A DNA stretch of 31,876 nt from a virus: the IMG/VR virus record IMGVR_UViG_3300042563_000557, positions 1 through 31,876 of that record. One strand, 5' to 3'. A program made the position numbers and the translations under genes. The notes beneath the pieces were generated by a model that did no database searches, was not told the DNA's origin, and worked only from the letters and a program-made list of their open reading frames with translations. This document shows, piece by piece, positions 22,207 to 23,880 of the stretch. The first letter of the stretch is position 1; every line of letters starts with the position of its first letter.

Positions 22207-22836
22207 ATGGCAATCACAGCAAAAAAAAGCGAAACATTTGAAAGAGAATTAATCGAAGCGGGAAATTATGTCGCCCGTTGTTATAGAATGGTAGAAATCG
22301 GGACATGTGACGAAGAATTTTTGGGAGTAAAAAAGCAAATGCACAAAGTCCGTATCGGTTGGGAACTACCAACAGAATTAAAAATATTTAACCCTGAAAA
22401 GGGAGAACAACCGTGCGTTATTGACAAAGAATATACTTTGAGTTTGGCCGACAAAGCAAATTTAAGAAAAGATTTACAAAGTTGGCGAGGTAAAGCGTTC
22501 ACGGACGAAGAAGCCGAAGCGTTCGACATTACAAAACTTTTAGGCGTTTCCTGCATGCTTAATATTATACACGTTCAGGGCAAAAAAGACCCGACAAAAA
22601 CCTATCAGGCAATCGGGAGCGTTTCGCCAATGCCAAAGGGGTTACTTTGCCCGCCACAGGTTAATGAAACATTTGTCTTTGACTTTGAAAACTTCGACGA
22701 AATTAAATTTAACACTTTGCCCGACTTTTTAAAAGAGCAAATCGCAAAAACGCCCGAGTATAAAGAAGCAATTTCACAAACCGTTGAAGCGTCGCCGTTT
22801 TTAGAAAATAACGAAGACGAGCAACATTTTATCTAA
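22207..22836 (+). CDS. Probable single-stranded DNA-binding protein (DUF669-like)
   Basis: A 209-residue protein with strand-rich core: IEAGNYVARCYRMVEIGT (about 16-33), HKVRIGWELP, and DITKLLGVSCMLNIIHVQG near 107-125. This resembles phage OB-fold proteins of the DUF669/gp2.5-like group that accompany recombination and replication genes. The C-terminal tail is acidic and ends in a hydrophobic residue (ENNEDEQHFI), the usual partner-binding tail of SSB proteins. Position just before the replication block agrees. Family assignment tentative; SSB role likely. Confidence 0.58.
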   Translation: MAITAKKSETFERELIEAGNYVARCYRMVEIGTCDEEFLGVKKQMHKVRIGWELPTELKIFNPEKGEQPCVIDKEYTLSLADKANLRKDLQSWRGKAFTDEEAEAFDITKLLGVSCMLNIIHVQGKKDPTKTYQAIGSVSPMPKGLLCPPQVNETFVFDFENFDEIKFNTLPDFLKEQIAKTPEYKEAISQTVEASPFLENNEDEQHFI

Positions 22837-22846
22837 AAAATAGTTT

Positions 22847-22854
22847 TATATTTG
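22847..22854 (+). promoter_or_regulatory. Possible -7 element (TATATTTG) of the structured leader
   Basis: TATATTTG lies 11 bases after the SSB-like stop and just upstream of the structured segment, so a transcript would begin near 22860. No good -33 box is present at the right spacing, so it is either activator-dependent or fortuitous, and the leader may instead be read from upstream. Confidence 0.4.
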
Positions 22855-22867
22855 CAATTGTAATTTA

Positions 22868-22952
22868 GTGAGATTTATTACAAACCGTAAAATATTATAA
22901 AAATCCGATGCAGGACGCCAAATCTCACAATAGGCGAAATGTATCGGATTTT
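22868..22952 (+). ncRNA. Structured leader RNA or small RNA with loop-to-upstream pairing
   Basis: AAAATCCGATGCA (22900-22912) pairs with 22940-22952 as a 13-bp stem with one G-U. Inside it, CGCC (22916-22919) pairs with GGCG (22933-22936). The 13-base apical loop holds AAATCTCAC (22920-22928), perfectly complementary to GTGAGATTT (22868-22876) upstream. This makes either a pseudoknot or two competing folds. T-rich sequence (TTTTACTTTTT) follows the stem, so it could also end transcription. No open frame covers it. It lies between the SSB-like gene and the replication genes. Confidence 0.68.
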
Positions 22953-22972
22953 ACTTTTTAATTAATAGTTTA

Positions 22973-22990
22973 ACGGTATCTTAAAACCGT
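22973..22990 (+). promoter_or_regulatory. Hairpin at the start of the gene at 22997, with alternative upstream partner
   Basis: ACGGT (22973-22977) pairs with ACCGT (22986-22990), 6 bases before the ATG. A second ACCGT at 22884-22888 could pair with the same ACGGT. The surrounding AAACCGT..ATATTAT occurs at both places (22882 and 22984), an imperfect direct repeat. The arrangement would allow a switch that exposes or hides the start. Confidence 0.45.
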
Positions 22991-22996
22991 GATATT

Positions 22997-23203
22997 ATGG
23001 CAAAATTTGAATTAAAATTTTTAGATTTTATTGACAGTAAAGAATTTATTAAGGTTTCGACAGACGTTAATAATTCATTAATTGAAATTTACACAGAAAG
23101 CCAAGAAAATTTTTGTTTTATTTATTTAGATAAATCAACGGCAATAAAATTAGCGAAAACACTTCGTACCGAAATAAATAAAATAACTGAAAATAATATT
23201 TAG
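22997..23203 (+). CDS. Small protein downstream of the structured leader, unknown
   Basis: A 68-residue protein starting MAKFELKFLDFIDSKEFIKV, with strand-rich centre (SLIEIYTESQENFCFIYLD) and a C-terminal helix (STAIKLAKTLRTEINKI). It has the look of a small alpha/beta regulatory or accessory protein; I know no function. It is preceded by the structured segment at 22868-22990 and followed after 2 bases by the replication initiator, so its leader could control the whole replication operon. Confidence 0.65.
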   Translation: MAKFELKFLDFIDSKEFIKVSTDVNNSLIEIYTESQENFCFIYLDKSTAIKLAKTLRTEINKITENNI

Positions 23204-23205
23204 TT

Positions 23206-23880
23206 ATGAACGGTTACGAACTTTCACGGAATTGGTTTGATTGGAGTTTTGAAAACCCCGAAAAAATTAGTCCAAATCACTCGGCACTATATTTTTTTGC
23301 AATTGAACATTGCAACCGTTTAGGTTGGCGCGAAAAATTTGGATTTCCAACAGAAATGGCAAAAGACGCAATAGGTATAAAATCATATAATACATACATC
23401 AAAACTTTAAATGATTTAGTTGAATGGGGTTTTATAAAAATGATTGAAAGAAGTAAAAATCAATATTCATCAAATATAATTGCATTGTCAAATTTTGACA
23501 AAGCACTTGACAAAGCACTTGACAAAGCAATAGTAAAAGCAAGTGAAAAGCAATTGAAAAGCATTGATAGTATAAATAAACCATTAACCAATAAACAGTC
23601 TATTAATTGGATTGGACTTTTAGAACAATTTAATTCTATAACAAATAAGAAATTAAAAGTTGTAGACGAAAAAACAAAAAGACAAGTCGTTGCAAGGTTA
23701 AAAGACGGCTATACAAAAGCGGATTTGGTTTTGGCTATTACGAATTGTTTTAACGACGAATATCACAAAGAAAATCCAAAATATTTAACTTTAGAGTTTA
23801 TAACAAGACCCGACAAAATGCAAAAATATTGTCAAGAAATTAACAATAAAAAGCAACCTAAAAAAATCGATAAATTATGA
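23206..23880 (+). CDS. Replication initiator / replisome organiser (lambda O-like layout)
   Basis: A 224-residue protein. Residues about 1-90 look like a winged-helix domain (NWFDWSFENPEKISPNHSAL, then IKSYNTYIKTLNDLVEWGFI). A linker with repeated DKALDKAL (98-107) leads to a C-terminal domain INWIGLLEQFNSITNKKLKV through LVLAITNCFNDEY and YLTLEFITRPDKMQKY (about 165-210), the conserved phage C-terminal (Phg_2220-type) domain of initiators. It would bind the origin and load the helicase. The DNA coding for the linker holds six phased AAAGCA repeats and may be the origin itself, as in lambda O. The stop overlaps the next ATG by 4 bases. Confidence 0.75.
   Translation: MNGYELSRNWFDWSFENPEKISPNHSALYFFAIEHCNRLGWREKFGFPTEMAKDAIGIKSYNTYIKTLNDLVEWGFIKMIERSKNQYSSNIIALSNFDKALDKALDKAIVKASEKQLKSIDSINKPLTNKQSINWIGLLEQFNSITNKKLKVVDEKTKRQVVARLKDGYTKADLVLAITNCFNDEYHKENPKYLTLEFITRPDKMQKYCQEINNKKQPKKIDKL
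23495..23563 (+). repeat. Iteron-like repeats inside the initiator gene (origin candidate)
   Basis: TTGACAAAGCAC occurs three times in tandem (23495-23506, 23507-23518, and 23519-23530 with last base A). The core AAAGCA continues at 23536, 23547 and 23558. The six cores are spaced 12, 12, 12, 11 and 11 bases, close to one helical turn. An AT-rich stretch follows (about 23564-23610). Initiator-internal iterons next to an AT-rich region are the lambda ori plan. Confidence 0.55.

Follow-up and report, generated by a model that had tools for sequence, protein, structure and literature searches.

What does the segment at positions 22847-22999 of the window (the whole 31,876-nucleotide stretch of viral DNA analysed) do in front of the genes that follow it? 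It was initially proposed from the sequence alone that a structured leader with loop-to-upstream pairing lies here ahead of a replication operon and behind a conspicuous box, and that a second hairpin next to the ATG could act as a start-site switch. All of the elements named in this sequence-only reading, including the box TATATTTG and the ATG at 22997, are present where they had been placed, as are the 13-bp hairpin (22900-22912/22940-22952) and the perfect complementarity of its loop to 22868-22876, and the leader does stand ahead of a replication operon, behind a promoter of the Bacteroidota type. Covariation supports the pairing, in a fold that is larger than had been described: the hairpins P2 and P3 had been recognised, while P1 and P2b had been overlooked. 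As P1 places GTGAGATTT in a hairpin loop, the pairing is a loop-loop interaction. The upstream gene had been called SSB-like, for which no confirmation was obtained, as phrog_862 is of unknown function and the protein had no Pfam match and no significant PDB match.

We conclude that 22858-22959 is an RNA of about 100 nt, forming a 5' leader in phages of Flavobacterium-like bacteria. The features of the locus, with the evidence for each, are:

22207-22836: upstream 209-aa protein, matching only phrog_862/phrog_6599 of unknown function
22847-22854, plus strand: -7 promoter box TAnnTTTG of the Bacteroidota type, TATATTTG (box statistics over 93 leaders)
22858-22883, plus strand: P1 hairpin, stem TTGTAAT 22858-22864 / ATTACAA 22877-22883, its loop holding K (covariation)
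22868-22876, plus strand: K, the kissing strand of the P1 loop, GTGAGATTT (pairing with K', covariation)
22884-22899, plus strand: AU-rich linker with the conserved motif AAANATTNTA (exact-match count against shuffles)
22900-22952, plus strand: P2, a terminator-like hairpin of 13 bp, arms 22900-22912/22940-22952 (covariation)
22916-22936, plus strand: P2b, inner stem CGCC 22916-22919 / GGCG 22933-22936, closing the K' loop (covariation)
22920-22928, plus strand: K', the kissing strand of the P2 loop, AAATCTCAC (MAFFT alignment and covariation scan)
22949-22959, plus strand: U-tract at the 3' end of P2, TTTTACTTTTT (T profile)
22973-22990, plus strand: P3 hairpin, arms ACGGT 22973-22977 / ACCGT 22986-22990, before the ATG at 22997 (partial covariation)
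22997-23203, plus strand: 68-aa ORF, phrog_33177 (conserved ends, variable middle)
23206-23880, plus strand: replication initiator (DnaD/O-like), second gene of the operon (phrog_428, phrog_18020)

K and K' are perfect complements and form a 9-bp loop-loop (kissing) helix that ties P1 to P2. The P2 stem has one G-U among its 13 bp (-23.6 kcal/mol, z -7.7), and the minimum-energy fold of 22847-23010 contains P1, P2, P2b and P3 at -38.7 kcal/mol, compared with -24.3 (sd 3.6) for shuffles. It had been argued that two complements of this kind would hardly arise by chance. When the leader was dinucleotide-shuffled, 15% of the shuffles contained some 9-base complement, and the 9-mer on its own is therefore weak evidence, whereas the arrangement of P1, loop-loop helix and P2 scored above all 2000 shuffles, and a score of at least 54 was reached by 37 of the 40 leaders fetched solely via the downstream protein, versus 1 of 800 shuffles. 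The second complement, between ACCGT at 22884-22888 and 22973-22977, was at chance, with a pairing of at least 4 bp in 22 of 47 leaders against an expectation of 17.9 (maximum 25) when the P3 arms were shuffled among leaders.

The fold was further supported by an alignment of 23 leaders, made with MAFFT by sequence alone and with no structure input. In this set 94.2% of pair cells were kept, compared with 38-42% after sliding the partners, and two-sided compensation was found at 24 of 31 pairs; the aligned phages are mostly related, and counts of compensated cells are not counts of independent events. The kissing helix was paired in 98.9% of cells, with two-sided changes at 6 of 8 counted pairs, and P2 in 96.4%, with such changes at 9 of 12. 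For P1 they were found at 5 of 7 pairs and for P2b at all four counted pairs, the fourth being present in few sequences. A second covariation scan, of 50 distinct relatives aligned by a model built without the kissing helix, recovered this helix at 94-100% in five covarying pairs. Nothing beyond P1, P2, P2b and the kissing helix came out of it: no helix competed with these, and thus no conserved mutually exclusive (antiterminator) helix was seen among these relatives. The start-site switch is not borne out by these data, and a two-state riboswitch, also suggested earlier, is unlikely as no competing helix covaries. The linker motif AAANATTNTA was exact in 41 of 85 distinct linkers, where 1.4 would be expected after shuffling. 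At the level of sequence, the design recurs across dozens of related viruses, its base changes matched between the paired strands, which strongly indicates that the fold is maintained by selection, and the existence of an RNA family is near certain.

That no named family has this layout agreed with a search of Rfam 15 at permissive and gathering thresholds, which gave no match, to a known simple terminator or otherwise, in the window and 15 relative loci (covering part of the subtypes); the best sub-threshold match was mir-2813, with 21.8 bits against a threshold of 70. Two other candidates were rejected: a leader peptide (ATG 22908, stop near 22961 in the window) was absent by eye from aligned relatives, and for a replication origin there was no sign change of the GC skew near the leader.

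How widely is this leader distributed? By blastn it was found at 70-76% identity in Flavobacterium phages, and a search for protein homologues of the 68-aa ORF yielded 53 IMG/VR loci, most of whose upstream regions have the same design with the letters changed. A descriptor scan of all loci (promoter, P1, kissing word, P2 and T-rich tail) gave 145 matches, 100 of them distinct, and 17 matches in 2.1 Mb of reversed-sequence control, none with an ORF behind. The descriptor demands the kissing word and the T-rich tail, and claims of universality rest on the alignment and the protein-derived set. In flavobacterial phage DNA, 93 distinct copies were retained, each with an ORF at most 80 nt downstream, a set chosen by this ORF criterion after six false-looking loci-strand combinations had been removed by hand. 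The ATG lies 9-24 nt past P2 in 40 of the 43 leaders without a recognised P3 and at 48-53 nt in the remaining three, where the pattern overlooked a P3 or some other insert is present; with P3 it lies at 38-53 nt, and in one case at 69 nt. Two or three copies occur on several of the contigs, and in phage genomes of which all or nearly all was scanned there were no more than one or two.

The named phages with the leader are Flavobacterium phages lillamy, morran, mumin and snusmum, Olleya phage Harreka_1 and Cellulophaga phage phi19:1. The downstream genes include the 68-aa family with the DnaD/O-like initiator, DUF6291 proteins, prim-pol/DUF3987, DEAD/ResIII helicases, N6 and N4 methylases, and HNH and GIY-YIG homing endonucleases. 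The copies contain about 40 different kissing sequences; 46 strings were listed, but the lower figure is safer because several, such as AGGCTT, GAAGTG, AAGTGAGACG, GGTTTGGC and GTGAGATTTA, are shifted or truncated versions of others. Further subtypes were seen with GCTTCTCAC and GGTCAG, as well as before homing-endonuclease-like genes (HNH/NUMOD4, GIY-YIG), which have their own kissing leaders with differing kissing sequences (L056:1986-2077; L048:3500-3583; L068:5450-5522; L080 5338-5415, reverse complement; L112 11867-11947). One plasmid search gave no match, GTDB genomes gave none to the 68-aa protein or to one exact RNA pattern (a search reaching only close relatives), and no named phage was matched when a second leader subtype (L018) was the blastn query. 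In the literature, no paper was found on such a leader or on gene regulation of these phages, and the lillamy and mumin genome paper contains no word beginning with 'RNA' (PMC7077304).

With regard to transcription, TAnnTTTG was exact in 78 of the 93 leaders and had one mismatch in 14 more, and plus-strand boxes cluster at 75-125 nt before the end of P2. As P1 mostly follows the box by 3-7 nt, it is probably at the 5' end of the transcript, and P1 would lie at or adjoining a start site placed by the box. Minus-strand boxes were not enriched at the leaders, which gives no sign of an antisense promoter, and there was no enrichment of a further box between P2 and the ORF. Downstream of P2, T reaches 90-100% at positions 2-4 and 74-93% at positions 10-11, with A from position 13, and this profile hardly differs between leaders with the ATG at about 16 nt and those with it at about 50 nt; the U-tract is therefore a feature of P2 rather than of the start codon. 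A stable hairpin followed by a U-rich tract of about 12 nt, present also in a leader set chosen without a T filter, is the form of an intrinsic terminator or attenuator. With a terminator score whose weights are calibrated on E. coli, 28 of 93 P2 hairpins were above the threshold and 65 below, which was counted against strong termination; the window's own P2 fell below it, at -22, because its U-tract is broken by AC and the apical part is long.

The best reading is that these RNAs are a new family of cis-acting leaders at the heads of early phage operons, mainly for DNA replication and modification. From the promoter, P1 behind it, P2 with P2b and the U-tract, the kissing helix and the nearby ORF, all present in the sequence, we infer polymerase-directed control at P2, tentatively and with a probability of about 0.4. 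A U-tract that belongs to P2 points to RNA polymerase, and to pausing or termination at P2. As the nascent RNA exits the polymerase, P1 would form and its loop would capture the P2 loop, P2 with the U-tract would make the polymerase pause or terminate, and the fraction reading through would set operon expression, possibly tuned by a phage or host factor, perhaps one that reads the linker AAANATTNTA. As there is no conserved antiterminator helix, any such control would act via a trans factor or folding kinetics.

The same structure could instead protect the mRNA, with a locked 5' fold blocking nucleases and the U-rich strand after P2 loading the 30S subunit, for which Shine-Dalgarno pairing plays no part in Bacteroidota. 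This would fit P1 at the probable transcription start, a structure that looks static with no alternative helix, an ORF start close behind P2, and the frequent A at -3, since A at such positions favours initiation in F. johnsoniae (PMC6847099). However, P2 keeps its U-tract in leaders where the ATG stands behind P3 at a distance of about 50 nt, and one or two copies per whole or nearly whole genome do not suggest a general stabiliser, and we consider protection with ribosome standby somewhat unlikely. A folded nascent RNA could also bind RNA polymerase and carry it past later terminators of the operon, as in processive antitermination by HK022 put, whose RNAs have two stem-loops and of which putL lies just behind the early promoter PL (PMC9378689); in the phage leader, two stem-loops likewise come directly after the promoter of an operon. 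This seems doubtful, as a terminator-like U-tract closes the leader, homing-endonuclease genes, which have little evident need of antitermination, also have copies in front of them, and the part of that account used here describes no kissing helix (PMC9378689).

The promoter and the terminator-like end are also what a small-RNA gene would have, with P2 ending a trans-acting product and the following ORF expressed only by leak-through, and in Harreka_1 and L037 another ORF does separate the kissing RNA from the 68-aa gene. A small RNA alone, as had been suggested, is nevertheless disfavoured and improbable: each of the 93 confident copies, that intervening ORF included, has an ORF soon after P2 in a set selected for it, and both loops are engaged with each other. 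The position of the leader, its pseudoknot and a hairpin before the ATG might suggest a ligand-sensing riboswitch or a start-site switch, but with no mutually exclusive helix covarying, the proposed pairing at chance and downstream genes without a common metabolic theme, this is very improbable. There is a slender chance that, in addition to control in cis, the leader of about 100 nt freed at P2 is trans-acting, its K kissing K' of a sister nascent leader to give sequence-specific feedback on the replication operon. This would resemble RNA-based copy-number or incompatibility control, and if true, the diversity of K (about 40 sequences) would define specificity groups.

P3 does not belong to the kissing RNA. 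It is missing from Muminvirus leaders, and Olleya phage Harreka_1 and L037 have an ORF that separates the kissing RNA from P3 and the 68-aa gene, and P3 is therefore regarded, on comparative grounds, as a separate module, weaker than the kissing RNA. Among 32 distinct sequences (four rows shifted), 67% of P3 stem cells were paired, with two-sided changes at 2 of 5 pairs, and the flank and loop AGTTTA...CTTAAAA are conserved. The P3 loop places AAAA at -12 to -15, with A at -3 and -6 of the ATG, and A at -3 is common before leader-associated ATGs; in F. johnsoniae, A at -3, -6, -12 and -13 favours initiation (PMC6847099). P3 could thus be a translational element offering the A-rich initiation motif of the 68-aa gene to the ribosome. 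The 68-aa family, in the window and its relatives, is almost invariant at its ends, MAKFELKF...LDKSTAIKFAKTLRTEINKITE, and varies strongly in between. Its AlphaFold model is beta-beta-beta-alpha (pLDDT 80.5), with a Pur-alpha repeat as the best, not significant, PDB match (E 0.36), and from this weak likeness the modelled protein is possibly nucleic-acid binding. At L037 2545-3001, a P3-type hairpin precedes each of two consecutive ORFs, which suggests that P3 may be a reusable translation element.

Several known systems share parts of this design. Plasmid rep leaders of the pT181/pIP501 type rely on an antisense RNA from the opposite strand and on mutually exclusive helices. A terminator-like hairpin between promoter and replication gene is common to both, but the phage leader has neither an enriched antisense promoter nor a covarying alternative helix. 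In type III toxin-antitoxin systems (ToxI-like), a tandem-repeat RNA is followed by a ToxN-like toxin. Here too a pseudoknotted RNA, a terminator-like hairpin and a downstream ORF are found, but by inspection each leader is a single unit with no tandem repeats, and the downstream genes are for replication, methylases and endonucleases, with no shared toxin. The CI RNA of phage P4 and the C4 RNA of P1 and P7 are processed RNAs that act in trans in immunity. These also have complementary loops in a phage leader tied to early termination; in contrast, relatives of the present phages, lillamy and mumin, are described as virulent (PMC7077304), and the leader has no Rfam match, while c4 antisense RNA is RF01695 (PMC2864571).

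The put RNAs of HK022 are about 70 nt with two stem-loops, putL lying just downstream of the early promoter PL, and act in cis on nascent transcription (PMC9378689). The leader is likewise a promoter-proximal phage RNA with two stem-loops, a likeness known here from sequence, but put is shorter, belongs to an enterobacterial phage, has no U-tract followed by an ORF and, in the part of the account used here, no loop-loop helix (PMC9378689). By analogy, the leader would work most like such a promoter-proximal nascent-RNA element or like a replication-gene attenuator, and we file it as neither; it is not placed with antisense-controlled attenuators because an alternative helix and an antisense promoter were looked for and not found.

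To summarise, a strongly covarying RNA family, missing from Rfam 15, is present in dozens of Flavobacteriia phages, where it stands at the head of operons for replication and DNA modification. In morran, the 'hypothetical protein' gp042 (MN812219.1 14157-14300; L001 2501-2644) lies over the leader RNA and is unlikely to be a real gene, and in snusmum9-1 and snusmum6-1 an annotated ORF overlaps the start of the leader RNA. Recognition of the leader would aid phage genome annotation. As isolated phages carry it (lillamy, morran, mumin, phi19:1 and Harreka_1), its mechanism is directly testable.
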